This document shows positions 17,470 to 32,507 of a stretch of 41,190 nt of DNA, in pieces. Numbering within the stretch: the stretch's first letter is position 1; each line of letters starts with the position of its first letter. The notes beneath the pieces were generated by a model, which saw nothing but the letters and a program-made list of their open reading frames with translations, was not told where the DNA came from and did not search any database. Origin of the DNA: Ruminococcus sp. (GTDB lineage Bacteria; Bacillota; Clostridia; Oscillospirales; Ruminococcaceae); the NCBI GenBank assembly GCA_017460665.1, contig JAFUAO010000086.1, positions 1 through 41,190 on the forward strand, in the 5' to 3' direction. A program made the translations under genes and the position numbers.

Positions 17470-17500
17470 ACTCCTCTGTTTTGTTGCGGGTCGAGAAGCA

Positions 17501-17693: not shown

Positions 17694-17741
17694 ACCTCTA
17701 TATCACGTGCAAAAGCACATCGTATTACTATGTATACCATT

Positions 17742-17770
17742 ATTCTATGCTAAAGAATGAAAATTGTCAA
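17742..17770 (-). promoter_or_regulatory. Intact promoter of the sensor remnant
   Basis: On the reverse strand TTGACA (17770-17765), 17 bp, TAGAAT (17747-17742), about 50 nt before the ATG of the decayed gene. The rest of 17771-17888 is AT-rich with no gene seen. Confidence 0.65.
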
Positions 17771-17888
17771 CTTGTTTATTAAAATCGGTGTCGAAGTCCA
17801 CGGAAATATTACATTTTCACAAATATTATCCAAGAAATATAAAATAGGAAAACAGGATCGCCCCAAAGAAAAGCGGTGCTTTTCGCAC

Positions 17889-17931
17889 AAAAAAACAGCC
17901 GCAAAGAAGCAAAAGCCTCTTAATGGCTGTT
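17889..17931 (-). terminator. Terminator of the NRPS operon
   Basis: On the reverse strand AACAGCC and GGCTGTT form the outer stem, with an inner AAGAGGC/GCTTCTT hairpin, then a T-run. It lies directly after the thioesterase stop codon, marking the end of the operon. Confidence 0.8.
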
Positions 17932-17936
17932 TTTGT

Positions 17937-18683
17937 TTAACGGCGGCTCTTATCCAGTACCTTTCGGAAATTGTCGCCTTCGTACAGGAAGAAATGACCG
18001 CCGTCAAATTCGGTGTAGCTGCTGTGCGCCGAGGTCATTTTCTGCCAGTTTTTCATATTGTCCCTGTTGAAATAGGGGTCGCTGCGTCCGCAGAAAACGT
18101 ATAGGTCGGTGCTTTTCAGCATAGCTCCGCTGTAGACGTAGCTGTCGTGGAGCAGATAATCGCCGTAGATGACGTCAAGGTAGAAGTCGAGGACGTCCTT
18201 GTTCTCGAAGAGCGCGGAGTCCGTGCCCGAGAGCAGCTTTACCTCGTCGATGAGCCGCTCCCTGCCCATCGACGTCTTATACCCCGGCGAGACCACGTCG
18301 GGGGAGCTGTGGGAGCATATTATCGCCCGCTCGGCAGGCGTCCCCATCTTCTCGAGCCTCAGCGCACACTCAAACGCTATCAGTGAGCCGAGGCTGCACC
18401 CGATGAGCGAGAAGGGCTTTCTCAGCTGCTCCGACAGCTCGGAGATTTCCCCGCAAAGGTGCGAGATGAGCCTGTCCCAGTCGCAGAGCGGCTCCTCTTC
18501 CATGCGCGAGCCGTGCGCGGGGAGCTCCGTCGGTATCACGGCGATGTCAGCGGCTTTGCCGATATTGCGGAAGAATGCCGACGCGCTCCCGCCTGCGTGG
18601 TGGAAGCAGAATAACAGCTGCCGCTCATTCCCGCTCAGTCTGTGCAGGTACGGGAAGCTTTTGTATCCGAGCCGAGTCCTCAT
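17937..18683 (-). CDS. Type II thioesterase of the NRPS cluster
   Basis: 248 aa alpha/beta-hydrolase of the GrsT type. Visible features are FCFHHAGGSASAFF (oxyanion region, 26-38), ELPAHGSR, nucleophile Ser97 in GCSLG, Asp in CGRSDPYF and His in FDGGHFF. The Cys before the nucleophile is unusual; most members have GHSMG. Type II thioesterases remove wrong acyl groups from carrier domains. Because no megasynthase in this cluster has its own release domain, this enzyme might also free the product. The ATG overlaps the stop of the preceding gene as ATGA, indicating translational coupling. It is the last gene before the terminator. Confidence 0.9.
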   Translation of the reverse strand: MRTRLGYKSFPYLHRLSGNERQLLFCFHHAGGSASAFFRNIGKAADIAVIPTELPAHGSRMEEEPLCDWDRLISHLCGEISELSEQLRKPFSLIGCSLGSLIAFECALRLEKMGTPAERAIICSHSSPDVVSPGYKTSMGRERLIDEVKLLSGTDSALFENKDVLDFYLDVIYGDYLLHDSYVYSGAMLKSTDLYVFCGRSDPYFNRDNMKNWQKMTSAHSSYTEFDGGHFFLYEGDNFRKVLDKSRR

Positions 18684-19996
18684 TTCATCAGCTCTTTCAT
18701 GGTGAGACCCTTTTCAGCTGCGAGGGTGTCGAAGAAATTCTTCATGAACTCCACGAGCTTTATGAAGTCCGCGCGGCAGTACACCTTGTCATCGAGGGCG
18801 AAGTGGAGCTCGAGGACGTCCTTCTGCTCGAATGCGACGAGGAAGATGTAATCAACGTCGAAAACGTGCTCGGGGATAGTCTGCGGCATCCACGATGTGA
18901 CCTCGACTCCGGGGAGATCGGAGGGCCCCATGCCCTTCATTATGTCCTGAGCGTAGCTGAAAAGGAAGCGCGAATACGTCACCTGCGAATAGAAACTGGG
19001 GGTGTGCTTCATTCCCTCGGAGGTAGTGAGCATTATGCTCTTGAGGAAGTCCTTGACCTCGGTGTCGTCGCGGGGGATGCTGTTGCGCAGGAGCATCGGG
19101 TCGAGCTGTAAAACGACTGTGTCGAAGAATTCGGGTACAGAGCGGTTCGCGGATATGCAGGTTATCGCTGTCTCGTCAGTGGAATACACGTGCGAGAGCG
19201 CAGCCTGATACGCGGCTATAACGAGGTTTCCCGCAGTTGTCTTGTAGTTCTTGCCCGCCTGCTTGAGGGTGCTCATAGGTATCTTCACGAGCTTTTCGTC
19301 CTCGCTTATGGAGTTGTTTTCGAGGGGCGCGTTATACTTGTAGAGCCCGTCGAGTCCCTCTCCTATCTTCTGCCAGTAAAGGGTGTTCTGCTCCATCACG
19401 CCGTTATCCTTGAACTTCTCGTAGAATTCGTAGAAATCGAGCAGCGAGCGCTTGTTTATCTTTCCGCCGCCCGGGAGACCGATGTAGTCGAGAATGAGCT
19501 TTTTCAGAATGAGCAGGAAGGCCTGTCCGTCAGCCATTCCGTGGTCTATGGCGAGCGCGAGGAAGTGGTCGTCCTCGCCGAGCTTGTAGAGAACTATCGG
19601 GCAGGCGCAGTCCCTGTAGTATTCGCGCTGAAAAACGTTGTACTGGACCTCCTTTTTGGCGTTCTCGAATCTCTCGTCGGGGTCGCTGCCCTCGGGCACC
19701 TTCTCCTCGAGCTGTATCTCGTAGCTTTCAAGTATCCTGAAATAGAGGTCGTCGGGGTCGTCCATATTGAGCACCGAGCGCATGGTGTCGATATCGCGGT
19801 AGCCGTTATTTATAGCCTTTTCCATTTTCTTGAGGTTTATCTTGCCCTTTATGCGCATACCCGCAGCGCATACGAGGGGGAATCTCTTGTCGAATCTGCC
19901 GTCGATGAGCTGCACGCCCCTGTTCATGAGCTTCACGAGCTCGAACGCCTCGAATTTGTCATTACCCTTTGAATCTTTTACATAAGCTGTGTTCAT
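18680..19996 (-). CDS. Free-standing condensation-domain protein with catalytic His
   Basis: 438 aa from the ATG at 19996, supported by AAGGAG and an ATGA overlap with the previous stop. The upstream in-frame extension belongs to the preceding gene. Length and pattern match one condensation/acyltransferase fold. The active-site motif reads AIDHGMADG (His152, Asp156, Gly157), equivalent to HHxxxDG with the first His replaced by Asp. The second, catalytic His is intact. Free-standing C domains such as VibH join a carrier-bound acyl group to a soluble amine, and relatives esterify alcohols. It is therefore a good candidate for product release or capping. The acceptor cannot be read from sequence. 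Confidence 0.8.
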   Translation of the reverse strand: MNTAYVKDSKGNDKFEAFELVKLMNRGVQLIDGRFDKRFPLVCAAGMRIKGKINLKKMEKAINNGYRDIDTMRSVLNMDDPDDLYFRILESYEIQLEEKVPEGSDPDERFENAKKEVQYNVFQREYYRDCACPIVLYKLGEDDHFLALAIDHGMADGQAFLLILKKLILDYIGLPGGGKINKRSLLDFYEFYEKFKDNGVMEQNTLYWQKIGEGLDGLYKYNAPLENNSISEDEKLVKIPMSTLKQAGKNYKTTAGNLVIAAYQAALSHVYSTDETAITCISANRSVPEFFDTVVLQLDPMLLRNSIPRDDTEVKDFLKSIMLTTSEGMKHTPSFYSQVTYSRFLFSYAQDIMKGMGPSDLPGVEVTSWMPQTIPEHVFDVDYIFLVAFEQKDVLELHFALDDKVYCRADFIKLVEFMKNFFDTLAAEKGLTMKELMK

Positions 19997-21258
19997 ATCG
20001 TTACTCCTTGTATCATATTTCTGAGGACGGTATCGGCTTCGCACCCGATAAACGCCCTTGTATAGCTGCCGAATACGGCGATCGTTTTTTCGTAGTCCCT
20101 GCGTGAGAACCTGCTGCGCGGGCAAACGAACTCCACCTCAAACACGTCTGCGAGCTCCTGTATGCGCAGGTAGATGAACGACGCGTCAACGCCGTCGAGG
20201 TAGAGGTCGGGCATATACTGCGTATATATGCCTTCGGGCAGGAAGGGCTTGCTGTGGTTGAGGAAGGACATACCGTAGCGGCTTATCGGGATATCGCGGA
20301 TATGCGCCGACTTGTGGCGGAGGTTGTCTCCCGCCTCGGCAGAGACCTTCTTCACGAAGGCTCCGAGCGTATCGTCGGTGTCAATGAGGATACGGCTGCT
20401 GAGGGGCTTGACGAACGGCCCGATTATTCCCCATTCGTCGAGGGAGTTCCTGTCGGTGGATACGTAGGATATCACATTGTCCGCGCTGCCGAAAACGGTC
20501 ATGAGTGTGAGGTGATAGACAGCCGTGAAGAGGCTGCCTGCGGTAGTTTTAAGCCTGCGCGCGGCAGACGAGAGCTTCTGCCGCGGGAAATACATAAAGC
20601 GAGGTCTGCCGTCGAAGGCGGGGAGGTCGCGCACATCGGGACTGTACGGCGGCAGCTCACAGCCGCCTATGTGACTGCGCCAGTATTCCGCGTCTGCAGC
20701 GGCTTTTTCGTCGCTGAGCCCCGCGATATAGTCCCTCATGCTCTTGGTCGAGACGCCTCCCGCTATGACAGTGCCCTTGTAGCAGCTGAGTATCTTCATC
20801 AGTGCCACGCCAATGGAGTGACCGTCGGAAACATAGCGGTCGAGGTAGGCTGCGAGAAAAAACTCCCCGCTGTCTATCCTGTAAAGCTCGGCAAAGAACG
20901 GGCTGAACGAGTATCTGTCCCTTACGGAGGAGCTCTGCGCGATAAGGCGGTTTTTGGCGTATTCGAGGCGCTCTGCGGGAGTCGCGCCCTCCGCGCTGAC
21001 GATATGCAGCTCCTCCGTGATGTCCTTGTCGAAGAGATAGCTGCTGCTGCCGTCGGCGTTCTTTACGAGGTGCATATGGAAGCAGTCGATCTCGGAATAG
21101 ACCTGCCTTACCGCCTCATTCAGCGCCTTGGTATCGACCTCCTCATGTATGCTCACGCCGTAGGAGACACAGCTTTCAAGTCCGCTTATCCGCTGACCGT
21201 CGAGCAGTGTTGTCCCGTTGATGCAAAAATCGGTATAGTCAAGTATGCTGTTTCCCAT
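19993..21258 (-). CDS. Free-standing condensation-like protein lacking the catalytic His
   Basis: 421 aa from the ATG at 21258. GAGGGG lies 10 nt before it, while an ATG three codons earlier (21267) has no spacing for a site. The protein shares the condensation fold pattern with its neighbour, but the active-site motif is YLDRYVSDG: Arg141 replaces the catalytic His, while Asp145-Gly146 remain. It may be a structural or acceptor-binding partner of the active protein encoded next, or use different chemistry. TGA of the NRPS gene and this ATG are separated by one base, the same junction style as at 24613-24617. Confidence 0.75.
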   Translation of the reverse strand: MGNSILDYTDFCINGTTLLDGQRISGLESCVSYGVSIHEEVDTKALNEAVRQVYSEIDCFHMHLVKNADGSSSYLFDKDITEELHIVSAEGATPAERLEYAKNRLIAQSSSVRDRYSFSPFFAELYRIDSGEFFLAAYLDRYVSDGHSIGVALMKILSCYKGTVIAGGVSTKSMRDYIAGLSDEKAAADAEYWRSHIGGCELPPYSPDVRDLPAFDGRPRFMYFPRQKLSSAARRLKTTAGSLFTAVYHLTLMTVFGSADNVISYVSTDRNSLDEWGIIGPFVKPLSSRILIDTDDTLGAFVKKVSAEAGDNLRHKSAHIRDIPISRYGMSFLNHSKPFLPEGIYTQYMPDLYLDGVDASFIYLRIQELADVFEVEFVCPRSRFSRRDYEKTIAVFGSYTRAFIGCEADTVLRNMIQGVTI

Positions 21259-21259
21259 A

Positions 21260-24200
21260 TCACACATTCCCCTCGATGAGAGCAGCTATCTCTGCGAGGT
21301 CCTCGGCGTTGAGAATGTCGAAGACTTGTATCTCCGCATCGTACGTTTCCTTAGCCCATGCAGCTATCTTCATGGCGGCAATGGAGTCTCCGCCGATGCC
21401 GTAGAAATCGTCCTCGGCGGTAATGGAATCGTCGCCGAAGATCTCCCTGCACGCAGCAATGAAGCGCTCGGTCAGCGAGCCGCTCTGTGTTGTCTCGTCA
21501 GCCTCGGAAGCGGCAGCGGGAGCCGCTTCTGCCGTAGCGCCGCTTTTTATGAGTAGCGCGGTCTTCCTGCGGTCTATTTTGCCGTTTCGGGTAGTGGGGA
21601 ACTCCTCTATGCGGAAATAGCGCTGGGGTATCATGTACGCCTGAAGCATTTCCGAAAGGCTGCGTTTCAGCTCTGCCTCGTCTATCTCCTTGTCGGAGGT
21701 GTAAACGGCGATGAGCTTGTCGGTATCCTCGTCCTTTATGACTATGCACGAGGATATCGGGTCATACGACCTTACGGCGTTCTCGACGCCCGTGAGCTCT
21801 ATCCTCTTGCCATTTATCTTCACCTGATAGTCCTCTCTGCCGAGTATGCGTATCTCGCCATTTTCGAGGTATTCGCCCCTGTCGCCGGTGTTGTACGCCC
21901 TTGCGCCGCGGTATTCGCTATAGCGCAGCTCAGTCTCGTCGGGGTCGCCGATGTAGCCGCCCGTCACGCCTGCGCCCGAGACGTACATCGTGCCGCTGAC
22001 ACCTATCGGGCAGAGAGCGCGGTGACTGTTGAGGATATAGTACGAGGTAGCGGGGAAGGGCTTGCCGTAGGGGATAAAGGCTGCGCCTGCCTCATCGGGC
22101 GAGACCTTGTGGCTGATGTTCCATATCGTCGTCTCGGTCGGACCTCCGACGCTGAAAATGTCGGTATCAGGCGAGGCGTCGAACAGCTTTTTCACGAGTG
22201 CGGGGCTTATCCAGTCGCCGCCCATCACGATCGTCCTGAGCTTCGCGACGGCGCTGCTGCCCTTATCGCCGAGCAGGGTCAGCATCTCCATGAACGCAGG
22301 AACGGAATTCCAGAAGTTCACATCGTATCTCATGATGAGGTCGTACCAGTGTGAGGGCTCCTTTTTCTTCTTCTCCGACGGGACTGCTATGCAGCCGCCC
22401 GCCGTGAGTATGCCGTACACATCGTAGAGCGACATATCGTGGCACAGGCTCGTTACGGCGAGCGCGGTCGGGATATAGTCCATGCCCATTATGCGGCGGT
22501 TATTGAAAATGCAGTTTGAAAGTCCCCTGTTGAGTACGGATACGCTCTTCGGGACGCCTGTAGTTCCCGAGGTGTTGATGATGACAGCCTCGGAGTCGGG
22601 GGCGCAGCTGTCGGCAAAGCCCGTGGTATCGGGGCTGCCTGTGAAAACGGAGCTGTCGCAGCGGATAACGTTGTACCTATCGCTGTCGATGCCTGCAAGG
22701 TGCTCGCCGAGCACTACTACAGCCTCCGCATTCACGTTGTCTATGCACTTTATCTGCGTTTCCTCGGGGAGCTCGGTCTCGAGCGGCATATACGAGATAC
22801 CCGCACACATACAAGCAGCCGAGACGATTATCTGTTCGGGAGCCTTGTCCATCACGAGGGCTATCCTTGCGGGCTTGTGTCCGCAGCGGCTCACGAGGAC
22901 AGAGATGAAGCTCTCGGCGGCGGCGCGGAGCTCCCCGTAGGTGTATTCACCTTCCTCGGAGACGATGGCTTTGCGGTCGGGATAGCTTTTGAAGGCGTTT
23001 ATGAGCTCTGCGCCTATCCACATTTTTTCTTCCGCGTTTTCGGCGTCCTTGTCATAGAGCAGAGCGGTTTCCGCGATGATGCTCATATCCCTGCTGCACA
23101 CCCCGATATCCCTCAGCGTTACGGCGTAGCTCTCATCGGAGGCTATCCTGCTGACGGTCTCCATGAAGCAGTCGGCAATGCCCTCGGCGGAGCGCGCGGA
23201 GATGATGTCGGGCTCGTAGTTCATGAGGAACACCTTGCTGCCGTCCATTTCCGTAAGGAGCACCTCTATCCAGTTCTGGCTGGTAAATGTCCTGACATAG
23301 TGCTTCGAGAAGTGCGTGAGCTCGCCGTGCCTGCTGCTGCCGACCGTGCTCGTGAAGGTCACGGGCGCAGGGATAGATGCGCCGATACGCTCCTGAAACA
23401 GCTTGAGTATGTCGGTTCCAGAAAAGCTGCTGTGCTCGCGGCAGTCGAACAGCGTCTCCTGCGTGGCAGCTGCGGTCTCGATGAGCGGGAGGTCCTTGGT
23501 GTCGTCGAAGTGTACGAACGTGAAGTTCGAGCACAGACCGACTGTGTTTTCGATGTTCCTGCACTCCTCGGGTCTCACGGACATCGGGATATTGATGAAG
23601 AAGCTGTGGTTCTCGCTGTAAAGGCTCAGCACCTTGCCGAATACGGTGAGGAGGAGCGCGAAGGGCGTGATATTGTTTTTTCTCGCCAGCTCGGACACAG
23701 CGGCGTACTCGCTCTCATCGAAGTATTTCACTATCTGCACCGCCGACGCCTTCTCCACCTTCTCGGGACGCTTCATTATCGGGAGGCGCGGTCTGTGGGA
23801 AATATTCTTCACCATCTCCGCCCAGAAGCGGCGGTCGTCCTCGAAGTCCTCGCTCGATTTTACGTCGCTGAGATACGAGCAGTAGTCCGCGAACCTGCAC
23901 GGCACCGAAGGCTCTTTTCCGCCGTATACAGCGTCTATCTCGTGAATGAGTATATCGAGTCCCTCGCCGTCGGAGACGAGTCCGTCATACGATACGTGAA
24001 TGATGGCGGAGGTGTCGGTCGTGCGGCTGACCGAGAAGGCTATCAGCGGGGGAGCGGCGGGGTCAAATTCATGCTCGTACTGCTTTGCACGGTTCTCCCC
24101 GAGCCTTGCAGCACGCTCGTCGTCCGAGAGGCCGCGGAGGTCATACTCGGGCACCTCGACGCTGACCTGATTCCTGATTATGCATTTGCCCTCGTCGACA

Positions 24201-24613
24201 TAGGCTGCCCTGAGCGAAACCTGACTGTTGACGATCTTCGTGACGGTGTCCCTGAACCTGTCGGTGTCGTAGTCATCGCACGCGAGCTCGAAATACGCCT
24301 TTGAGGCGCTTCCGCCGAGAGTGACCTCCTTTCTTCTGCCGATATATACCGTCTTCTGCATATCGGTCACGTGCACCACCTCGTCGTCGGACTGTCCGCC
24401 GCCGATGAGAGCTGCTATCCCGTTTACCGTTCCGCAGCGGTAGAGCTCCTTGAGCGATATCTTCTTTCCGAGGCTCTTCTTTATCTGCATTTGCAGCTTC
24501 GTGAACTCGAACGAGCCTCCGCCAAGCTCAAGGAAGTTTTCGTCGTTGCCGCACTCGTCTATCTTGAGTATCGTGCAGAACGATTCGTTCAGTTTCTGTA
24601 TTATCTCGTCCAT
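21260..24613 (-). CDS. NRPS: carrier - cyclization (Cy) - adenylation (Cys-like code) - carrier
   Basis: 1117 aa from the ATG at 24613, which has GGAGG 8 nt upstream (an ATG at 24643 lies inside the previous gene). Domains: carrier with Ser34 in LGGGSFEF (1-75); Cy domain (about 80-510) with QKTVYIGRRKEVTLGG and the DxxxxD motif SYDGLVSDGE (Asp210, Asp215); A domain (about 530-1025) with NTSGTTGVPKS, CHDMSLYDVYG, GGPTETTIW and NGKIDRRK; second carrier with GIGGDSI (Ser near 1077). My reading of the ten specificity residues is D-M-Y-N-V-G-V-I-W-K, close to the Cys code DLYNLSLIWK. The Cy motif usually ending TPQVxLD reads TSQNWIE here. No TE, reductase or terminal C domain. The order matches the start of PchE and HMWP2, which make aryl-thiazolines. 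Confidence 0.9.
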   Translation of the reverse strand: MDEIIQKLNESFCTILKIDECGNDENFLELGGGSFEFTKLQMQIKKSLGKKISLKELYRCGTVNGIAALIGGGQSDDEVVHVTDMQKTVYIGRRKEVTLGGSASKAYFELACDDYDTDRFRDTVTKIVNSQVSLRAAYVDEGKCIIRNQVSVEVPEYDLRGLSDDERAARLGENRAKQYEHEFDPAAPPLIAFSVSRTTDTSAIIHVSYDGLVSDGEGLDILIHEIDAVYGGKEPSVPCRFADYCSYLSDVKSSEDFEDDRRFWAEMVKNISHRPRLPIMKRPEKVEKASAVQIVKYFDESEYAAVSELARKNNITPFALLLTVFGKVLSLYSENHSFFINIPMSVRPEECRNIENTVGLCSNFTFVHFDDTKDLPLIETAAATQETLFDCREHSSFSGTDILKLFQERIGASIPAPVTFTSTVGSSRHGELTHFSKHYVRTFTSQNWIEVLLTEMDGSKVFLMNYEPDIISARSAEGIADCFMETVSRIASDESYAVTLRDIGVCSRDMSIIAETALLYDKDAENAEEKMWIGAELINAFKSYPDRKAIVSEEGEYTYGELRAAAESFISVLVSRCGHKPARIALVMDKAPEQIIVSAACMCAGISYMPLETELPEETQIKCIDNVNAEAVVVLGEHLAGIDSDRYNVIRCDSSVFTGSPDTTGFADSCAPDSEAVIINTSGTTGVPKSVSVLNRGLSNCIFNNRRIMGMDYIPTALAVTSLCHDMSLYDVYGILTAGGCIAVPSEKKKKEPSHWYDLIMRYDVNFWNSVPAFMEMLTLLGDKGSSAVAKLRTIVMGGDWISPALVKKLFDASPDTDIFSVGGPTETTIWNISHKVSPDEAGAAFIPYGKPFPATSYYILNSHRALCPIGVSGTMYVSGAGVTGGYIGDPDETELRYSEYRGARAYNTGDRGEYLENGEIRILGREDYQVKINGKRIELTGVENAVRSYDPISSCIVIKDEDTDKLIAVYTSDKEIDEAELKRSLSEMLQAYMIPQRYFRIEEFPTTRNGKIDRRKTALLIKSGATAEAAPAAASEADETTQSGSLTERFIAACREIFGDDSITAEDDFYGIGGDSIAAMKIAAWAKETYDAEIQVFDILNAEDLAEIAALIEGNV

Positions 24614-24614
24614 T

Positions 24615-25865
24615 TCATATTCCTCCGTTATTGTATATTTCATCTGCGAGTGAGATGTATTTTACATAGTTGTCGGCGAGCGTCTCCGCGAAGTCCTTGC
24701 TGAACAGCTCCTGCGGGTATACGATACTGATGTACAGACTTCCCTCGAGGACGAAGGTCTGCACATCGAGCATTACCTGCGGGGTCTGCGATATCATATA
24801 GCGGAGCCTGCCGATATTCTCCGTGAACAGCCCGCTGAGCAGCGGAACGTCGCAGACGGGCGAAAATACGACAGATGCCGCAGCCGCTCTCTCGGGGCAG
24901 AGCCGCGCTATCCTGCGCCTGATGTTAGCCGCTCTGTAGCCCGTGAAGGACATATACCGCCGATATGCAGCATACGCTCTCTCAGCGCCCTCGCGCGCGG
25001 GAACGTCACTGTCATAGGCCATCGGTATCAGCTTTATGTCCGTCAGGTCGCCGACGCAGCCTTTTTCAGCCTCGCTCCGTCGGAAGCACGGGTAGTTCAC
25101 CAGCAGCCCGCCGTCGCCCGTCATCGAGCACAGCGCGGCGGTGAAGGCGTACATCAGCCTTGCGTCGGCGTCCTCATCAGTTGTTATCCACGCGGCACAG
25201 TCAGTGAGCCTGTCCGCCGCTGCATAGCGGCACGCCGAGAGCTCCTCGGGCTTTGCGGAGTACGGCAGTGTCAGCCCATACGGGTATCCTGCGATATCCT
25301 CCGCGATGATGCTTTCAGCTCTCGCCTTCGTCGCTGAGGCAGCCGCCGCGCGGAGCTTCAGCAGCTTGTCCGTACTGTACACGCAGGTTTTCGGCTCTCT
25401 GCCGCAGTAGAGCTCGGCGAGCTCGGACAGCACCAGTACGAAGCTTTTCACGTCGCCCGCCACGAGGCTCCAGTCGAACGCGAGCATATTCTCGTCGCTC
25501 CCGAGCCTTATCAGCCATAATCCGCAGCATTCGCCGTTCTCCGTTTTGCAGCTGCGCACGGATACGCGCCCGCGGAAGCTCTTGAGCTCGGCGTCTTTTT
25601 CCTCATCGCTCAGCGCGGTGAGGTCGACGACCTCCATTCTGCTGCATTCGGGCAGCTCTTCGCGGTCGGTGATGATACCTCCCGAATAGACCGCGCGCAT
25701 TTCGGGGTGCATTGTGAAAAGCCTCCTCCACGCCTCGGCAAGGTGGGCCTCGTCAATGTCTCCGCAGTCGAATTCAAAATACGCGTGGCAGCCCACTCCG
25801 CCGAGCGGCAGAGACGGATCCTGTCCCGCTATATACGCGCACTGCGCGTCGCTCATGAACTTCAT
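24615..25865 (-). CDS. Free-standing Cy-like (heterocyclization-type) protein
   Basis: 416 aa, one domain. The N-terminus AQCAYIAGQDPSLPLGGVGCHAYFEFD is a clear Cy C1 motif. Near the C-terminus SQTPQVMLD (359-367) is the canonical Cy motif with its Asp367, and VVFSPVCD precedes it. The DxxxxD active-site region is altered: FDWSLVAGD has Asp131 and Asp138 with six residues between. Cy domains normally condense Cys/Ser/Thr and cyclise to thiazoline or oxazoline as part of a megasynthase, so a stand-alone copy is unusual. It lies directly between the AMP ligase (ATGA overlap) and the NRPS. It may complement the NRPS-embedded Cy domain, which has the opposite defect. Confidence 0.8.
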   Translation of the reverse strand: MKFMSDAQCAYIAGQDPSLPLGGVGCHAYFEFDCGDIDEAHLAEAWRRLFTMHPEMRAVYSGGIITDREELPECSRMEVVDLTALSDEEKDAELKSFRGRVSVRSCKTENGECCGLWLIRLGSDENMLAFDWSLVAGDVKSFVLVLSELAELYCGREPKTCVYSTDKLLKLRAAAASATKARAESIIAEDIAGYPYGLTLPYSAKPEELSACRYAAADRLTDCAAWITTDEDADARLMYAFTAALCSMTGDGGLLVNYPCFRRSEAEKGCVGDLTDIKLIPMAYDSDVPAREGAERAYAAYRRYMSFTGYRAANIRRRIARLCPERAAAASVVFSPVCDVPLLSGLFTENIGRLRYMISQTPQVMLDVQTFVLEGSLYISIVYPQELFSKDFAETLADNYVKYISLADEIYNNGGI

Positions 25866-27433
25866 CTCCGCTCACCCGCATACTCTCTCACGAGCCGCTT
25901 CTTATCGACCTTGTTCACCGCGGTCAGCGGGAAGCTCTTTACGTTTACGACGATGTCGGGCAGCTTGTAAGCCGCGACTCCGCTCTCTCTGAGGAAGTCT
26001 CTCAGTTCCCTGAGTCCGACCTCTTCGTCCAGCGGCACTATAAAGGCGGCGATGGCGCTTCCAAGCTCCTTATCGGGGATCCCCGCCACGGAGCAGTCCG
26101 CGACCTTATCGTATTTCCTGATATTGTTCTCGAGCTCGGACGGCATTATCTTTTCCCCGCCCTTGTTTATCTGCTCTACGGCTCTGCCGAGGAGCGTCAG
26201 CTCGCCGCGCCCGTTGAGCACCGCAAGGTCGCCTGTTCTGTAGTATCCGTCGGGCGTGAAGCTCTCGGCGTTTGCTTCGGGGTTGTTGTAATATCCCGTT
26301 ATGGTGTAGGGACCTCTCGTCACCATTTCCCCCGCCTGACCGTTCGGCAGAGGCTCGCCGTCCGCACCGAGTATGAGTATCTCGTCATACGGCGAAATGG
26401 GTATGCCCTGTCTGCCGCTGTCGGGGCGGAGCTCATCTGTGGGCGAATAGCAGGTATTCAAGCCCTCTGCCGTTCCGTATATCTGCAAAAGCTTACACCC
26501 CAGCACCTCCTCCGCGCATTCCTCCGTCTCCTTCGGGAGCATAGCTCCTCCCGTCATAACGAAGCTGAGGGAGGAGATGTCGTCGGAATCGTCGTCGCGG
26601 CGGTAGTCTATGCACATACCGAGCACAGACGGCACCATCGCCGTATACGTAGCTCTTTCCGCCTCGATACAGCCGAATATCTCCATCGGCGAGACCGAAT
26701 CGCTCATCACGACCCTGCCGCCGTACATGAGCGTGCCGAGCATACCGGGGTTGCCGAGCGTGAAATTGTGCGACGCGGGCAGAACGGCGAGAAATACCGA
26801 ATCGCTCCCGAGCAGGCAGCGCTCGCCGATGACGGTGTTGTCGTAGATGTAATCGCCGTGCGTGCGCGGTATCATTTTCGGTATGCCCGTAGTTCCTCCT
26901 GAGAGGAGCAGCAGGGCGATATCGGTGTAGTCGGGCTTTTCGTAGTCCGCGGGAACGTTACCGAGCTCCGCCTGTCTGCGTATGTCCTTGCCTGTGATCA
27001 TATGCCTTATGCAGGCGTTTTCCTCTGCGACGCTCTCCGCAACAGCGATACAGCCCGAATGGCACTCCGTGTCCATGCATATGTAGGCTTTCGGGCTGCT
27101 GAGTCTGCAAATGCCCGATATCTCGTATCTGCCGTGCGCGGGGAGGGTCATCACGGGAATGATGCCGCCCTTGAAGAGAGCGAAAAGCGTTACCGCGAGC
27201 TCCAAGGAATTTGGCACCTGCAATACGACTATATCGCCCTTTTTCAGTCCCAGCGAGAGGAAATACGCGAGCAGGCTGTCCGACATCGTGTCGAGCTCGC
27301 TGTAGCTTATCCGCTCGTCCTCGCAGACCACAGCCGTCTTATCGCCGTACTTCTCCGCAAGCTCGCCGAGCAGCACGCCGTACGTGATACATCTCCATTT
27401 ATCGCAGTGCTCTCTCACACCGTCCCATTTCAT
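25862..27433 (-). CDS. Aryl-acid AMP ligase (DhbE/EntE/PchD/YbtE family)
   Basis: 523 aa ANL-family enzyme. It carries the DhbE-type signatures VMTLPAHGRYEI, the P-loop LLSGGTTGIPK followed by MIPRTHGDYIYD, PASHNFTLGNPGMLGTL (the Asn after His contacts the aryl ring in DhbE), and YRTGDLA. It would adenylate an aromatic acid such as salicylate or 2,3-dihydroxybenzoate and load it on the first carrier domain of the NRPS. GGAGG stands 8-9 nt before the ATG. The window holds no isochorismate or salicylate synthase, so the acid comes from elsewhere in the genome or the environment. The ring substituents cannot be set from sequence alone. Confidence 0.9.
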   Translation of the reverse strand: MKWDGVREHCDKWRCITYGVLLGELAEKYGDKTAVVCEDERISYSELDTMSDSLLAYFLSLGLKKGDIVVLQVPNSLELAVTLFALFKGGIIPVMTLPAHGRYEISGICRLSSPKAYICMDTECHSGCIAVAESVAEENACIRHMITGKDIRRQAELGNVPADYEKPDYTDIALLLLSGGTTGIPKMIPRTHGDYIYDNTVIGERCLLGSDSVFLAVLPASHNFTLGNPGMLGTLMYGGRVVMSDSVSPMEIFGCIEAERATYTAMVPSVLGMCIDYRRDDDSDDISSLSFVMTGGAMLPKETEECAEEVLGCKLLQIYGTAEGLNTCYSPTDELRPDSGRQGIPISPYDEILILGADGEPLPNGQAGEMVTRGPYTITGYYNNPEANAESFTPDGYYRTGDLAVLNGRGELTLLGRAVEQINKGGEKIMPSELENNIRKYDKVADCSVAGIPDKELGSAIAAFIVPLDEEVGLRELRDFLRESGVAAYKLPDIVVNVKSFPLTAVNKVDKKRLVREYAGERR

Positions 27434-27445
27434 AAAAAGACCTCC

Positions 27446-29668
27446 TCATTCTCTTGCGCTCTTTAAGCTGTCGCTCATATTGATGTTCTTGACTTTTCGG
27501 CTCAGCAGCACGAGCGAGACCGCATATGACAGCACGATAGCCGCTATGAATATGACGAAGCCCTTCGCGCTGAGGTATACGGGTATCTGCGCCTGAAAGC
27601 TCGCTGTCGAGAAGTCGAAATACATCCATGTTATCAGCCAGCCTCCGCCGAGGGCAAGTACAATGCCAAAGGGCACGAGGATATGGTATATATTCGTGGT
27701 GATGCGGTCTATCTCGCGGCTGTGGTAGCCGAGTACCTTGAGCATGGATATCGTGACGGCGTTCTCCTCGATGAGCATATTCACCATGAGGTAGACGCTT
27801 ATCGCGCAAATGACGGTGCCGAATATCACCATCAGCCATATGAGAGCCTTCATGCCCGAGATGACGTTCTGTATCATTTCCTTCATCGCCTTTTTCTCGA
27901 TGACCTCGGCAGTCACGGAGCTGTCGATATCGAGCTCCTCCTCGGACATGACGATGTTGTAATAGCCCTCGTCGATGCCGATGAGGTCGGCGACGGTCTC
28001 GGCGGACGAGATCATCATCGACTGCGCGCGGTTGTTTATCACGCCCGAGACGGTAATGTCGTACTCCTCGAGCGAGCACGGGTCGTACACGGTGAGCACG
28101 TCGCCCTTGCCGACTCCGAATATCGCGGAAGCCATCGAGGAGATGTAGTATTTCCCGTCGAGGTCGGCAGTCCCGCCGTCGGTCGTCTCAAGGTTTATCA
28201 TGCTGCCCTCGCCGTACACTCCCGTGAGCATTATGCTGTTTTCGCTCCCCGTGACCTCGAAGGTGTTGGAGAGGAGCTTTTCGCCCTCCTGCTCATCATC
28301 GTTCATGGGGTAGGAGAGGATATATTCGTAGTTGAAGGAGCCGATGTCGTCGATGACGTTCTTCTCGTAGTTCTTGCATGAATCGTCCATCATGAGAGCC
28401 ATTGCCATGATCAGTCCGCTGACAACTATGCCGAGTATGACGACTATAGTCCTGCCGTAGTTGTTGAGAAGCGAGCGCAGGCGGAACTTGGTCCTGAAAT
28501 TCACGCCGCTCTCGACGAGGAGGCGTGATTCCCTGCCGCGGGTGCTTCTGCCACTGAGCATATCCGTGACGTTCATTTTCAGTATCCTGCCCGCCGTGAG
28601 GAGCGAGGTCACAGCGTATGCCGCAACGGGCACAACGAGGACTATCGCCACATTCACGGGGGATATCGTATATTTCACGGGGAGCTTCTCAAGCTTGAAG
28701 AAGAATTCCCCCGCAGCCATATCGACGAAGATGTACGTGAGGATTATTCCCGCGGCCTCGCCGAGAATGCCCGGGATAAGCGCGTACCATACATAGTGCA
28801 GCGATATCTCGCTCTTTCTGTAGCCGAGCGCGGAGAGGGTGCCGATGTGCTTCTTTTCCGACCTCACCTTTCGCCCGAGCACGACCGCTATTATCGCAAT
28901 GACGAGCAGGAGCAGGGCAGGGAGTATGCCGCCCGTTATGAGGCTGTACTGTATTATCGTAGCCTTGGGCGTGGATATGCGGTGGTTGGTGTCCGATGAC
29001 ATATACGAAAGAGTGTGGAACTCATCGTAGATGTACTTCCTGACGTCGTCCTGCCCGTTGTCACCGTAGGTTATCGAGTAGTAGAACTGTCTGTCGCCGA
29101 AGCTCTCCATCTCGCCGTCGGTGACGAAGGCTATGCCGAACTCCGACGCGCGGTGGAAGCTGTCAGACTGGTTCTCGATCATGTATAGGTAGTCGGGGCG
29201 CTCGGCAAAGCCCGTCACGGTATAGCTCCTGCCGCCGAGCTCTATCTCGCCGCCGACGGCGATATCGTTAGCCTCCGCGAAGCTCTGCGAGAGGCATATT
29301 TCGTCGTCTTCCTCGGGGGCCGAGCCCTTGGTCACCTCGGGGATATTGACCTTTTCCGTGAAGCCGAAGACGCGGACGGTATAATCGTCCTCCTCGAAGC
29401 TGCAATAGGTCTGCCTTTCGAGCTTTACGCCGTACTCCTCCTCAATTGCGGACAGGTCGTCGTCGGTCATCTCCTTCAGCGTCGTGAACTGACCGTCCTC
29501 GACGTTGTTGATGCGGAAGAGGTCGTGCACGTATTTGTCCTCGCAGATGACGGAGGTGCTGAACAGGAGATACATCAGTGCGGTGATGCAGGTGAGGAAG
29601 AAGATACCCGCATAAAACGAGAAATTATGTATAAAGCCTCTTTTGTATCTGTTGTTAAGTTTCTTCAT
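27446..29668 (-). CDS. FtsX-type ABC transporter permease
   Basis: 740 aa. Layout is that of a two-repeat FtsX/MacB-superfamily permease: a membrane helix near 15-38, a ~200-residue extracytoplasmic domain, three helices at about 240-370, another helix near 405, a second extracytoplasmic domain, and three final helices. MacB-type proteins use mechanotransmission to expel peptides or lipids rather than forming a classic import channel. It is encoded between the PPTase/ATPase genes and the biosynthetic genes, with an ATGA overlap to its ATPase, so export of the NRPS product or self-protection is likely. No import system with a binding protein is seen in the window. Confidence 0.85.
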   Translation of the reverse strand: MKKLNNRYKRGFIHNFSFYAGIFFLTCITALMYLLFSTSVICEDKYVHDLFRINNVEDGQFTTLKEMTDDDLSAIEEEYGVKLERQTYCSFEEDDYTVRVFGFTEKVNIPEVTKGSAPEEDDEICLSQSFAEANDIAVGGEIELGGRSYTVTGFAERPDYLYMIENQSDSFHRASEFGIAFVTDGEMESFGDRQFYYSITYGDNGQDDVRKYIYDEFHTLSYMSSDTNHRISTPKATIIQYSLITGGILPALLLLVIAIIAVVLGRKVRSEKKHIGTLSALGYRKSEISLHYVWYALIPGILGEAAGIILTYIFVDMAAGEFFFKLEKLPVKYTISPVNVAIVLVVPVAAYAVTSLLTAGRILKMNVTDMLSGRSTRGRESRLLVESGVNFRTKFRLRSLLNNYGRTIVVILGIVVSGLIMAMALMMDDSCKNYEKNVIDDIGSFNYEYILSYPMNDDEQEGEKLLSNTFEVTGSENSIMLTGVYGEGSMINLETTDGGTADLDGKYYISSMASAIFGVGKGDVLTVYDPCSLEEYDITVSGVINNRAQSMMISSAETVADLIGIDEGYYNIVMSEEELDIDSSVTAEVIEKKAMKEMIQNVISGMKALIWLMVIFGTVICAISVYLMVNMLIEENAVTISMLKVLGYHSREIDRITTNIYHILVPFGIVLALGGGWLITWMYFDFSTASFQAQIPVYLSAKGFVIFIAAIVLSYAVSLVLLSRKVKNINMSDSLKSARE

Positions 29669-30363
29669 ATTCCAATCTTCTCCGAGGGTATCTTGTTGCT
29701 GTTGAGCTCATTCACAACGACCTTTCCGTCCTTTATCCTGATTATCCTGTCAGCCATGAGGCGTATATCCTCGTTGTGGGTGATTATGACAATGGTGGTG
29801 CCGAACTCCTGATTCACCTTTTCGATGTATTTGAGTACGGCTGATGACGATTTTGAATCGAGCGCGCCCGTGAGCTCGTCGCACAGGAGTATCTTCGGGT
29901 TCTTGATGAGAGCCCTGCCTATCGCGGTTCGCTGCTGCTGACCGCCCGAGAGCTCGCGCGGGAAGCGGGCGCGGTACTTCTCGATACCGAGCGCCTTCAT
30001 AATGTCGTCCGCGTCGAGCGCCGAGGCGGAGATATCAGACACGACCTCGATATTTTCCCTGACAGTAAGGTCGGGGATAAGGTTGTAGAACTGGAACACG
30101 AAGCCCACGTCCGAGCGCCTGTATTCGGTGAGCTGGCGCGGCTTGAGCCCCGTTATCTCCTTTCCGTCGATGAGGATGCTGCCGCTGTCGGGAGAGTCGA
30201 TACCTCCGAGGATATTCAGCAGAGTGCTCTTGCCCGAGCCCGAGGGCCCAAGAATGACGCATATCTCGCCTTTTTCGATACCGAGCTCCGCGTGGTCGAG
30301 TGCATAGACGAGGGCGTCGCCTTTGCCGTATTTTTTTACTGCGTCCTTTACTTCGATAAACAT
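29665..30363 (-). CDS. MacB/LolD-type ABC transporter ATPase
   Basis: 232 aa. Walker A GPSGSGKST, Q-loop VFQFYNLIP, signature LSGGQQQR, switch His in ITHN. The residue after the Walker B Glu is Leu (LLCDELTGALD), where nearly all relatives have Pro (DEPTGALD); the catalytic Glu itself is present, so activity is still expected. AAGGAG precedes the ATG. It pairs with the FtsX-type permease encoded next, with a 4-bp overlap. Confidence 0.92.
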   Translation of the reverse strand: MFIEVKDAVKKYGKGDALVYALDHAELGIEKGEICVILGPSGSGKSTLLNILGGIDSPDSGSILIDGKEITGLKPRQLTEYRRSDVGFVFQFYNLIPDLTVRENIEVVSDISASALDADDIMKALGIEKYRARFPRELSGGQQQRTAIGRALIKNPKILLCDELTGALDSKSSSAVLKYIEKVNQEFGTTIVIITHNEDIRLMADRIIRIKDGKVVVNELNSNKIPSEKIGI

Positions 30364-30373
30364 AATATTCTCC

Positions 30374-30997
30374 TTATGACATTAATTCGTTTGGGTCTAC
30401 GTAGTGTATTTTCTCCCGCCGCTCGGAGCACACCGCAAGTGCTCCGCCGCGGACGCCGAGCACAGTGAAATACCTGCCGCACGAGCGGAAGCTCTTCTCC
30501 GCAGAGGTGCAGATGTCGTGCTCTGCGCTCCTTTCGGGTATGCCTGTTCCTACGCACTTGAAATAGCTCTCCTTGGCCGCCCATATGCGGGTGAGCTCCA
30601 TTCCGCCTTTCAGGAGCGCGCGCTCTCCCTCCGAGCAGAAGAGCTCCTCGACGCCGCCCGATCCGGAAATGGTCTGCTGAATGTCGACGCCGATGGGAGC
30701 GTCAGACACTCCCGCACATATCAGACCGTGTGAGTGGGAGAGATTGAAGTGGATATTGCGGCAATTTGTTAGTACAGGCTTACCGAAAGGGCCAAAATAA
30801 AAATACGGCTTTTCGTCAATGCCGTATTCTCTTTTCAGCGCATATCTCAGCAGAGCATACACTCCGCACGAGTCGACCCTGTCCGACAGCCTGCGGAACC
30901 TCTCCATGCTTACGAGTCGCTGGGGAGAGCACCTCGCGCTCAGAGCGTCCAAGGTCTGCTGAGACGCAAGTTTCGCGTCAAATCGGGAAAAATACAC
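30374..30997 (-). CDS. 4'-phosphopantetheinyl transferase (Sfp type)
   Basis: 207 aa from a GTG at 30997. The longer ATG reading (31045) would begin at the predicted transcription start and has no ribosome site, while AGAGG lies 7 nt before the GTG. Motifs: FGPFGKPVL, NLSHSHGL, metal-binding GVDIQ and WAAKESYFKCVG. The residue two after the Asp in the first metal motif is Gln rather than the usual Glu. The enzyme transfers phosphopantetheine from CoA to the carrier-domain serines (positions 34 and ~1077 of the NRPS). It is the first gene of the cluster operon, so activation and synthesis are made together. Confidence 0.85.
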   Translation of the reverse strand: MYFSRFDAKLASQQTLDALSARCSPQRLVSMERFRRLSDRVDSCGVYALLRYALKREYGIDEKPYFYFGPFGKPVLTNCRNIHFNLSHSHGLICAGVSDAPIGVDIQQTISGSGGVEELFCSEGERALLKGGMELTRIWAAKESYFKCVGTGIPERSAEHDICTSAEKSFRSCGRYFTVLGVRGGALAVCSERREKIHYVDPNELMS

Positions 30998-31050
30998 CAA
31001 TCCGCCTCTCAACCTTTCTGTATAAACAGTTGTAAAATATACCATAGGTT

Positions 31051-31080
31051 ATTATAATACTGATTTTGGTCCGCCGTCAA
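31051..31080 (-). promoter_or_regulatory. Promoter of the NRPS operon
   Basis: On the reverse strand TTGACG (31080-31075), 18 bp, TATAAT (31056-31051). The predicted start point is near 31044, giving a ~47-nt leader to the GTG at 30997. Confidence 0.65.
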
Positions 31081-31163
31081 TCACTGCTGAAAATATTGTT
31101 AAAAATTATCAATAAGCACGAGTGGAGTTAACAAAAATATATGTAACATAAATATTTGAATTT

Positions 31164-31172
31164 TATATAGCA
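31164..31172 (-). promoter_or_regulatory. Possible second, extended -10 promoter of the NRPS operon
   Basis: On the reverse strand TGC-TATATA, an extended -10 without a clear -35. The place where a -35 would lie is covered by the palindrome at 31183-31200, so binding there could block or activate it. Confidence 0.3.
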
Positions 31173-31182
31173 CACATATGAT

Positions 31183-31200
31183 GGTTAGCCTAGGCTAACC
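31183..31200. promoter_or_regulatory. 18-bp perfect palindrome, DtxR/IdeR iron-box-like operator candidate
   Basis: GGTTAGCCTAGGCTAACC is its own exact reverse complement. Its halves GGTTAG and CTAACC are those of DtxR/IdeR iron boxes (AGGTTAG-S-CTAACCT), but the half-site spacing is 6 bp rather than 1. It lies between the SLC13 gene stop (31207) and the NRPS operon promoter. It lacks a T-run and has no loop, so it is not a good terminator. Control by a metal-dependent repressor is inference. Confidence 0.5.
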
Positions 31201-31206
31201 AAATGA

Positions 31207-32457
31207 TCAAAAATGAAAAATGGAAGGCGTGAGACCGATTATCAGTAAGATGAGTGCCGACTGCAGGCTCCAGCCGTAACGGATATAATCCCTGAACTTG
31301 TAGCCCGCGCGCATCGTCATGCCGATGAATCCGCACGAAAGGGGCGTCATTATCGACAGTCCCGCAGCCATAGTCACGGCGACGACAAACGGCGTCGGCG
31401 CGAGTGAGTACCGCTCCGCAACGTCTATCGCGAACGGCAGTATCATTATCACCGTCGTCGTGTTGGCAAGGACGTTGCTGATGAGCACCGTCATCACCAC
31501 AAATACCGCAAGGAGAGCGATAGCGGGGACGTCGGCGGGCAGCGTCCTGTATATCCACTCCGACACCCTCTGAACAGCGCCGCTCTCGTTCAGTGCTCCC
31601 GCGAGCCCGATACTGCACCCGAGCCATATGATGACGTTCCAGTCGGTCTCTCTGAGAGCCTTTTTCTCGTCCACAGCCCTGCCAATGAGGCAGATGAGCG
31701 CGCCTATCACCGAGGCGACCCCGACCGAGACTGCCTCCGTAATGAACAGCACGAGCATGACCGCAGCAGCGATGAGCGTGACAGCTGCGCCCCGCCTGTT
31801 TATCCTCACATCTGTGAGTTCTTCGCTTGCCTCAGCGGGCTCATCTTTGCGCTCGCCCCATATTTTGATACCGCGCTTGTACGAGAAGCTGCATATCATC
31901 GCCGAGCTTGCGGCGAATATCAGGAGCCCCAGCGGCAGCAGCTCGAACATTGATATTCCCTGCCCCGTGGACTCCTCGGCGATAGACGACGCAATAAGGG
32001 TCGCGGGCGCGCCGATGAGGGTGCACTGTCCGCCGAGAATGGCGCAAATTATCACGGGCAGGATTATGTTTTTGGAGTCGATGTTTTTCTGCGCCTTGGA
32101 TATGCTCGAGCAAATGACCATCATCATCGAGCATACGACCTGATTGTTCAGGAACGCCGACATGAGCGCCGCGATACAGCCTGCGATGATTATGATGCGC
32201 TTTTCCTTGCCTTTTGAGAGGCTGAGTATGCGCGAGGCTGCCGCGCTGCCGAGACCGCAGTCGAAGAAGGCGATACCGAAGATCTCGGTCCCGAAGACGA
32301 TGAGCACGATGTCGTTTGTGAAGCCGCCGAGCGCCTTAGCGAGCGGGAAGCCTCCGAGGCATACCATCAGTATGCAGCCGAGCATAGCTACCGTTGAAGG
32401 CTTGAAGATATCGAGGATAAAGAGAATGATACATAAGATGAAGATTGCGAGGACCAT
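31207..32457 (-). CDS. SLC13/DASS-type (ion transporter superfamily) permease
   Basis: 416 aa from the ATG at 32457. A TTG at 32502 lies almost on the predicted transcription start, so it is not used. About 11 membrane helices, with two family hairpin motifs: GGQCTLIGAPATLIASS in the first half and SNVLANTTTVIMILP in the second. Relatives carry di- and tricarboxylates, sulfate or arsenite with sodium or protons. Its placement just upstream of the NRPS operon, same strand, 160-bp gap and own promoter, suggests but does not prove a link, for example uptake of a carboxylate precursor. Confidence 0.85.
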   Translation of the reverse strand: MVLAIFILCIILFILDIFKPSTVAMLGCILMVCLGGFPLAKALGGFTNDIVLIVFGTEIFGIAFFDCGLGSAAASRILSLSKGKEKRIIIIAGCIAALMSAFLNNQVVCSMMMVICSSISKAQKNIDSKNIILPVIICAILGGQCTLIGAPATLIASSIAEESTGQGISMFELLPLGLLIFAASSAMICSFSYKRGIKIWGERKDEPAEASEELTDVRINRRGAAVTLIAAAVMLVLFITEAVSVGVASVIGALICLIGRAVDEKKALRETDWNVIIWLGCSIGLAGALNESGAVQRVSEWIYRTLPADVPAIALLAVFVVMTVLISNVLANTTTVIMILPFAIDVAERYSLAPTPFVVAVTMAAGLSIMTPLSCGFIGMTMRAGYKFRDYIRYGWSLQSALILLIIGLTPSIFHF

Positions 32458-32507
32458 AGGGGAGAAAACCGTTCCTTCCTTAAAGTTAGTATAATAAAAC
32501 AATTTGT

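Follow-up and report, generated by a model that had tools for sequence, protein, structure and literature searches.

A candidate iron-repressed operon for an aryl-capped thiazoline metallophore in Ruminococcus sp., with cyclodehydration residues on a free-standing Cy protein

Introduction

VibF has the domain order Cy1-Cy2-A-C1-PCP-C2 (Cy, heterocyclization; A, adenylation; C, condensation; PCP, peptidyl carrier protein). In its described roles, Cy2 condenses and Cy1 cyclizes, C1 takes no part in catalysis, and the amine is acylated by C2 (PMC5577590). BasD has been read likewise, by analogy with vibriobactin and fimsbactin (PMC12005286). The separability of condensation and cyclodehydration in Cy domains has so far been argued from VibF and from single mutants. 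For cyclodehydration, an Asp and a helper Gln matter in PchE (D480, Q482), EpoB and HMWP2-Cy2; in BmdB, where the Gln is absent, the Asp matters too (PMC8807600, PMC9547227). Equibactin, from Streptococcus equi, needs salicylate from the medium. Its operator, a palindrome with the core GTTAG-N6-CTAAC, is bound by EqbA with Fe2+ in electrophoretic mobility shift assays (PMC3672683).

Here, we describe a nonribosomal peptide synthetase (NRPS) operon in a 41,190-nucleotide stretch of Ruminococcus sp. (contig JAFUAO010000086.1, assembly GCA_017460665.1; hereafter the window). On balance, we favour an iron-repressed operon for an aryl-capped thiazoline (or methyl-oxazoline) metallophore, in which two Cy units divide the labour. 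The residues for condensation and cyclodehydration appear to be parted over two proteins, an arrangement that resembles, by analogy, the division between Cy1 and Cy2 of VibF.

Results

Organisation of the locus

We searched Pfam and NCBIfam with ten minus-strand open reading frames (ORFs) from the 17937-32502 region. Nine of them, from 17937 to 31045, lie head-to-tail. Successive listed ORFs are spaced by +10, -4, +12, -4, -29, -8, -133 and -4 bases. Since these gaps are small or overlapping (12 bases at most), we treat the nine genes as a single operon. From the sequence, the unit also takes in a predicted operator at 31183-31200, and the transporter gene at 31207-32502 probably belongs to it. 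The nine genes, in gene order, and the adjoining features are as follows.

30374..31045, minus strand: 4'-phosphopantetheinyl transferase (PPTase); PF01648, 38.7 bits; probable start near 31000
29665..30363, minus strand: ABC exporter ATPase; PF00005, 125 bits
27446..29668, minus strand: FtsX-type ABC permease; PF02687 in two stretches, 97 bits; MacB_PCD 26.3 (cut-off 27)
25862..27433, minus strand: aryl-acid AMP ligase; TIGR02275, 446 bits; DhbE (1md9), 8.9e-119
24615..25865, minus strand: stand-alone Cy, predicted trans cyclodehydratase; Cy matches in PDB and motif SQTPQVMLDVQ; PF00668, 27.1 bits
21260..24643, minus strand: NRPS, T-Cy-A-T (T, carrier); PF00550 in two stretches, PF00668, PF00501; probable start ATG near 24613
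19993..21267, minus strand: C1, condensation fold with degenerate DRYVSDG; PF00668, 82 bits
18680..20125, minus strand: C2, condensation protein with DHGMADG; PF00668, 73 bits; probable start ATG near 19999
17937..18683, minus strand: type II thioesterase (TEII); PF00975, 113 bits; GCSLG at 95, GGHFF at 228
31207..32502, minus strand: CitMHS/DASS-type transporter; PF03600, 192 bits; probable start ATG at 32457
31183..31200, no strand: predicted iron box (operator) GGTTAGCCTAGGCTAACC; perfect palindrome GGTTAG-N6-CTAACC
31051..31080, minus strand: promoter-like TTGACG-18-TATAAT; 11/12 match, to consensus only

Some ORFs probably start downstream of their first start codon. A genome of the same genus, G500 (locus L045), carries these genes at 96-100% protein identity, and its PPTase ORF begins at the equivalent of residue 16. 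In that copy C2 is cut by the contig end and TEII falls outside the recovered stretch. Both promoter hexamers are identical in G500. The transporter gene has a 12/12 consensus promoter match of its own at 32536-32508. The window's genome (G000; 2.87 Mb in 104 contigs) is 92.9% complete. Carrier motifs of the NRPS are GGGS from residue 41 and GGDS from residue 1084, and its Cy-A part gives BmdB as the best single-stretch PDB match (408 bits).

An earlier, sequence-only reading had proposed a single reverse-strand operon with this gene set and a carrier-Cy-A-carrier NRPS, and the Pfam and NCBIfam matches, carrier motifs and BmdB match agree. It had also found no thiazoline reductase in the operon and no TE domain; both observations hold, a separate TEII being the only thioesterase found by Pfam. 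Its MacB-type exporter stands as an exporter pair, and not as one MacB protein: the ATPase and the FtsX-type permease are separate, and MacB_PCD falls below cut-off.

A Cy pair with divided residues

The protein encoded at 24615-25865 is, as judged from its sequence, a stand-alone Cy domain. Its PF00668 score is below the cut-off of 30.6. In PDB it matches NRPS chains only (E up to 1). Seven of the eight matches are named PchE, EpoB, HMWP2/Irp2 or bacillamide synthetase, all Cy-bearing; the eighth, 6lta, is named just 'Nonribosomal peptide synthetase'. The best match is PchE (8e-22). Three free-standing condensation-fold proteins had been claimed. Three are indeed present, although this one is a Cy and not of condensation type.

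In the stand-alone motif SQTPQVMLDVQ, the catalytic Asp and helper Gln are kept and Ser occupies the dyad Thr position. The embedded Cy (NRPS residues ~85-510) keeps DGLVSD and the Thr, and its TSQNWIEVLL has Glu for Asp and Leu for Gln. We compared the Cy-type domains of the fetched loci, counting as stand-alone those below 430 aa and setting aside four rows that were C-type or without the position. Stand-alone Cy domains have the Asp in 7/7 cases and the Gln in 6/7. Their partner NRPS Cy domains have Glu without Gln in 7/7. The other Cy domains of these loci, among them a 494-aa free protein of L048 and two in L046 that do not adjoin its stand-alone, have Asp in 38/38, with Gln in 35 and Ile in 3. 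At 78 outside named loci, Asp is found in all 23 Cy domains having the position; four more rows lack a residue there, and the script skipped C-type HH/HR rows. The pattern was first noticed on the window, L045, L046 and L047; it then held in later tests on L088, L096 and L204. Since the window and L045 are near-copies, as are L088 and L096, the seven loci amount to five lineages.

At the dyad Thr position, Ala (FACN/FAAN) is common in Cy domains directly after the aryl starter, as in PchE, while Asp and Gln are constant. These domains are in L039, L042, L043, L048, L049, L050, L052 and L053 and, outside, in L055, L073, L074, L110, L112, L114 and L124. A 346-aa Cy-like frame in G025 was considered as a free Cy; it is cut by the contig end and is uninformative on free Cy domains.

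The two remaining condensation-fold proteins differ at their active sites. C1 has lost the catalytic His (DRxxxDG, as DRYVSDG). C2 keeps it (DHxxxDG, as DHGMADG), without fully matching the HHxxxDG reference motif. In the motif table, 12 of 14 rows, all other than C1, carry xHxxxDG. We rejected C1 and C2 as a set of canonical C domains, C1 being without the His. Reading both as Cy domains from their DxxxxD look (DRYVSD, DHGMAD) was also rejected; their best PDB matches are weak and mostly C-type. From its motif, C2 is the candidate release enzyme.

Comparison with described systems

The VibF order Cy, Cy-A, C1, C2 reappears here as gene order. VibF/VibE and the Ruminococcus operon are further alike in having two Cy units with a predicted split of labour, an inactive then an active C, and release to an amine. 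The likeness is one of described roles (PMC5577590); that one Cy keeps and one lacks the cyclodehydration residues is what is seen here. Unlike in VibF, the Cy, C1 and C2 are separate proteins (compare the ORFs at 24615-25865 and 21260-24643), the NRPS itself contains the aryl carrier, Cys is the probable residue and an isochorismate pathway was not found. AngN/AngM and BasD/BasB also place two Cy domains on a protein apart from the A domain and release by a C domain onto an amine (PMC5577590, PMC12005286). In those systems, however, a single protein holds both Cy domains; the Ruminococcus operon has one free and the other within the NRPS.

Equibactin is a Gram-positive parallel with an aryl ligase, PPTase, TEII and ABC genes, no salicylate synthase, and the operator core GTTAG-N6-CTAAC (PMC3672683). 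Unlike the present locus, equibactin has three Cy domains, methyltransferase, epimerization and TE domains, a reductase, the importer EqbHIJ and a regulator gene in the cluster. Pyochelin PchD/PchE share the aryl ligase and the carrier-Cy-A-carrier layout, and the PchE Cy is the nearest in PDB to the stand-alone. By comparison with the Pch set, the operon has no epimerization insert, PchF, PchG or salicylate synthase, and its cyclodehydration residues are on another protein. BmdB resembles the Cy-A part. Unlike in the bacillamide system (described in part in PMC8795117), there is no partner oxidase or decarboxylase, and the cap is an aryl group and not an amino acid.

Distribution and origin of the pair

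A Cy-type match to the stand-alone query (E <=1e-6) occurs in 25/125 genus genomes. Four of these have a free-standing Cy (open frame of 416-418 aa): G000, G500, G464 and G463. Of 396 family genomes searched by profile, 24 had matches, the window's included, and further free-standing copies were in G853, G779 and G540. Among 398 phylum genomes there were matches in 15, again including the window's, and beyond the latter no frame below 700 aa was found. A single-protein query of 394 order genomes matched in 3. Searching plasmids by tblastn returned only relatives below 60% identity.

Clusters of aryl ligase and T-Cy-A-T NRPS recur in the genus (L038, L039, L040, L042, L043, L046, L048, L049, L050 and L052). 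Two loci are from named relatives: L088 from Ruminococcus sp. UBA4275, and L096 from Oscillospiraceae bacterium RGIG2780, of goat omasum. Relatives of the FtsX permease are found in clusters L038, L039, L044, L050 and L206. Scanned proteins include an Irp3-like reductase in L048 (21.7 bits, under the cut-off of 27) and nitroreductase-family enzymes in L039 and L040.

A tree was built from 54 Cy domains, with a midpoint root used for drawing only. Near-copies (rows of L045, L054, L203 and L208) and rows without the motif region were left out, and Cy domains of six outside loci were added. Stand-alone Cy domains form one group (100/97) among aryl-first Cy domains. The Glu-bearing Cy domains also form one group (99/94), which adjoins the second-module Cy domains of L042, L043 and L049 (together 100/100). 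Branches are long, and one join between such branches drew a warning from the program. The pair thus seems, from the tree, to have arisen once and been kept since. The window's A domain follows the same affinity as the embedded Cy: its code, DMYNVGVIWK, is identical to that of the L043 second module.

A predicted iron box

The box GGTTAGCCTAGGCTAACC sits between the transporter gene and the PPTase gene. Its EqbA-type core, GTTAG-N6-CTAAC, is at 31184. In G500 the arms are conserved and the centre is altered. GGTTAG-N6-CTAACC occurs at 23 sites in 12/18 genomes (reversed pattern, 0) and at 48 sites in 36/125 genus genomes (reversed pattern, 3). We viewed 19 of the 23 sites and, of the 48, those inside viewed loci. 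Among the 38 distinct box loci viewed, 17 have feoA and/or feoB. In the window's own genome, a box (G000:C70) adjoins feo, with FeoB (PF02421) and a FeoA 77% identical to a Pfam-confirmed FeoA; a second FeoA-like frame was seen nearby, by eye. Elsewhere the box neighbours flavodoxin/DUF2325, or a gene whose match to an Fe-dependent repressor is weak (25.5 bits against a cut-off of 26). Several sites have neighbours without an evident iron role. Because the box is common to feo genes and its core equals that of the EqbA operator, we read the operon as being under predicted iron control.

We also scored 20 cluster loci, picked for holding Cy or aryl-ligase clusters, by exact core only. The core is present in 8, once each and always outside ORFs of >=100 aa. 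It occurs at spacing 6 only, with none at 0-5 or 7-12. A Markov null gave a mean of 0.125 and a maximum of 1 in 40 runs. The pattern was defined on the window itself; leaving out the window and L045, the core is in 6/18 other loci, with L088 and L096 close to each other. The core ends ~35 bases before the transporter gene in L088 and L096, and in L039 it is 590 bases from the next ORF. In a wider position weight matrix scan of the cluster loci, most scores overlap the null (largest 13.4). Besides exact cores, a few exceed it, such as L040 at 5653 (21.1), 47 bases before the first cluster gene.

Two other identities for the palindrome were rejected. Its ability to fold (z -2.1) would suit a terminator, but the palindrome is not followed by a T-run, and its arms recur at other sites around unrelated centres. 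The DtxR/IdeR 19-bp box has similar half-sites but a spacing of 1, not 6 (PMC8464063); the EqbA box fits.

Other boxes have recurrent neighbours. In L223, L224 and L226 (G048, G461 and G044), the box and its intergenic region are common to feoA/feoB and a divergent ABC ATPase (51-52% to the window's) with a large permease-like neighbour; such an ABC exporter may, judging from its position, belong to the iron regulon itself. Boxes in L227 and L230 adjoin a conserved pair comprising a 188-aa membrane protein (MKGKDLINIGIF..., ECF S-component-like by eye) and a 307-aa protein. The 307-aa protein is listed alone by the box of L239, and a G045 site is ~2 kb from an NRPS match. The pair is a possible uptake route. 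In L209, L217 and L235, boxes lie 60-100 bases upstream of a family of uncharacterised ~480-aa secreted proteins.

Aryl acid and amino acid substrates

The ligase matches TIGR02275 (1.6e-133) below the equivalog cut-off of 723.6. DhbE, CahJ-type and PchD structures are among its best PDB matches, DhbE being the best, which bears out its earlier assignment as an aryl-acid AMP ligase. Its pocket letters are N-F-N-M-A-I-N-T-K. The Asn that binds aryl hydroxyls is kept. The second Asn is at a position that is Ser in aligned 2,3-dihydroxybenzoate (DHB) enzymes and Cys in salicylate enzymes, a position whose role is shown by work on BasE (PMC12005286). The pocket Asn is common to the ligase relatives of L042, L043, L046 and L049.

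A chorismate-binding enzyme (PF00425) is encoded exactly once per genome, in 15/15 genus genomes and 2/2 named relatives. From its length, it is probably anthranilate synthase. No second chorismate-binding enzyme, and no salicylate or isochorismate synthase, was found in the 17 genomes. A salicylate synthase elsewhere in the genome was thus rejected, and the lack of one, remarked on earlier for this locus, was seen in all 17 assemblies. These assemblies give no support to salicylate or DHB made in the usual way, which leaves an imported acid, anthranilate or some other acid as options. With no second chorismate-binding enzyme and a non-canonical ligase pocket, import of the aryl acid is a possibility. 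There is precedent for a missing salicylate synthase, since equibactin depends on salicylate in the medium (PMC3672683).

The A-domain code DMYNVGVIWK equals the DLYNLSLIWK of many neighbours at 6/10 positions. We take DLYNLSLIWK to be the Cys code. Hence, Cys is the likely, not certain, substrate, and the description of the domain as Cys-like stands for the six matching positions and not for full identity with Cys enzymes.

Transport

A homologue of the CitMHS-type transporter (E<=1e-20) is present in 8/18 genomes, one copy each. Seven are inside an aryl-NRPS cluster; the eighth (G029) is on the same contig, ~20 kb from the ligase. In L088 and L096 the transporter is ~5 kb from the ligase. 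CitMHS members carry metal-citrate. Neither a DtxR-family regulator nor an EqbHIJ-type importer was found among the ten cluster-side and ten flank ORFs scanned; the flank ORFs include one more ABC ATPase, at 38394-39158. FecCD is present in 5/7 genomes searched. The operon had been described as having no import system. No classical importer was found, and the adjoining conserved transporter calls for caution over the rest.

Proposed pathway and alternatives

The genes, motifs, co-occurrence, box and box neighbours are taken from sequence; from these we infer the chemical steps, the product and the metal. At low iron, a DtxR/EqbA-like repressor would leave the box at 31183-31200 and the operon would be transcribed. 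The PPTase would prime both NRPS carriers. The ligase would load an aryl acid, probably imported and probably with an ortho hydroxyl, onto the N-terminal carrier, and the A domain would load Cys (likely) onto the C-terminal carrier. The embedded Cy would then make the amide, and the stand-alone Cy would dock in trans to close and dehydrate the ring. C2 would pass the aryl-thiazoline acyl group to an amine, releasing the product. C1 would be structural, without its catalytic His, like the inactive C1 of VibF. TEII would clear wrong acyl groups. The ABC/FtsX pair would export the product, and the adjoining CitMHS-type transporter would import the aryl acid or the metal complex. These roles in condensation, cyclodehydration, release and structure are proposed from the VibF roles, the gene order Cy, [T-Cy-A-T], C1, C2 and the motifs. 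The most likely product is an aryl-thiazoline amide released by C2.

An unlikely alternative, though one we take seriously, is that the stand-alone Cy, of PchE-type aryl-first descent, does both steps in trans, leaving the Glu-bearing Cy as a structural or docking relic. The stand-alones do group with aryl-first Cy domains (midpoint root), and PchE, the solved relative of those domains, carries out both steps, with other residues substituting for the dyad Thr (PMC8807600), and L048 has a free Cy able to keep all residues. A relic sits poorly with an embedded Cy that keeps DGLVSD and the Thr, is under purifying selection (dN/dS 0.08 for residues 1-660) and is retained in 7/7 pairs. Moreover, the VibF domain that condenses (PMC5577590) is the one adjoining A. 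In another reading, the A domain, of second-module type, takes Thr, Ser or modified Cys to give a linear or oxazoline product. We consider this improbable. Most neighbours have Cys-type codes that lack its G at 301 and V at 322, and the A code and Cy go with the second modules of L042, L043 and L049. Against this, Y239, N278, I330, W331 and K517 agree with the Cys code, and the best Cy-A match, BmdB, is a Cys enzyme.

The sequence-only reading had guessed at a metallophore or a signalling molecule. The iron box leads us to favour the first, and an exported signal or antibiotic that responds to iron and is never re-imported seems doubtful. The signal or antibiotic view draws on the lack of a FecCD above cut-off in G000 or G500, on the export of antimicrobials by other FtsX-type exporters and on the operon itself, in which Pfam found no receptor or substrate-binding protein. 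Even so, the box also lies by iron-supply genes (feoA/feoB, flavodoxin, a repressor-like gene), and equibactin, with the same operator core, is a siderophore (PMC3672683). The sub-threshold Irp3-like reductase of L048, and half-transporter-size ABC proteins near the L048, L096 and L207 clusters, point the same way. Finally, a decaying remnant without function is very hard to credit. In G500 and L047 the NRPS is split between two frames, the C1 His is lost and so is the embedded Cy Asp. Yet all operon frames are open in the window, and dN/dS between G000 and G500 is 0.02-0.36 over nine compared stretches (CitT included, TEII left out, NRPS residues 1-660 only). The Asp-to-Glu change is common to an old group and the operator arms are conserved.

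Several observations nonetheless weigh against an iron-repressed metallophore operon with divided Cy labour. A FecCD permease above the Pfam cut-off of 26.5 was not found in G000 (21.2) or G500 (19.9), both ~93% complete. Hence, no classical ferric-siderophore importer was found there, and uptake is the weakest point of the metallophore reading. The exact core is missing in 12/20 cluster loci and the exact box in 89/125 genus genomes. The box precedes the best promoter match by ~100 bp, so a different promoter may be the repressed one. Neither ring nor cap is certain, since the A code differs from canonical Cys at 4/10 positions and the ligase pocket is unusual. The operon holds no amine-supply gene, and the NRPS frame is broken in two in G500. 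As for the Cy pair, the free Cy of G456 (L048:4100-5584, 494 aa) retains the Thr along with Asp and Gln, and no Glu partner accompanies it. Thus, a free Cy does not as a rule imply a Glu partner. That protein has ~68 extra docking-like N-terminal residues, is elsewhere in the Cy tree and adjoins the Irp3-like reductase gene. The second-module Cy domains of L042, L043 and L049 lack the Gln yet keep the Asp, and the Glu of the embedded Cy may still serve as a base. Because each Cy type forms one group, their co-occurrence seems to be one ancient event and not several independent ones. The broken NRPS frames are at L045:9512-12909 (G500) and L047:2039-5044 (G463); neighbouring genes are open, and either assembly error or decay would explain them.

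Novelty and host setting

In open-licence PMC papers, we found no such Ruminococcaceae cluster and no free single Cy with a Glu-bearing partner. Within those papers, the earlier statement that no described product has this architecture is sustained. We file the chemistry as known and its dissection and regulation as new. A natural pair with the residue sets on two proteins opens the separability of condensation and cyclodehydration to direct test. The operon further points to a rich set of aryl-thiazoline pathways, and an EqbA-type iron box, among fibre-digesting anaerobes; in open-licence PMC papers, we found no account of such metallophores in these organisms. Environmental aryl acids are a possible currency in gut iron competition. 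A broader proposal, which we advance tentatively as a little short of an even bet, is that a family of free Cy proteins in Ruminococcaceae-type gut and rumen anaerobes are dedicated trans cyclodehydratases for condensing-only NRPS Cy domains. They would act in iron-repressed pathways, some making metallophores from gut or rumen aryl acids (plant phenolics) via a co-regulated CitMHS-type transporter.

Elsewhere in the window, the ORF at 11609-13951 encodes five SH3_3 repeats, a C39-like peptidase domain and a type I dockerin. The dockerin protein points, by its sequence, to a cellulosome-making host and fits a Ruminococcaceae-type gut or rumen anaerobe. In another genome, G035:C1:685013-738455 has very large NRPS frames, up to 8673 aa, unlike the window system. 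Just past the operon end are tRNA-Leu and tRNA-Ser genes (16339-16520), and GC content is 0.44 at 16001-18000 against 0.54-0.55 on either side.

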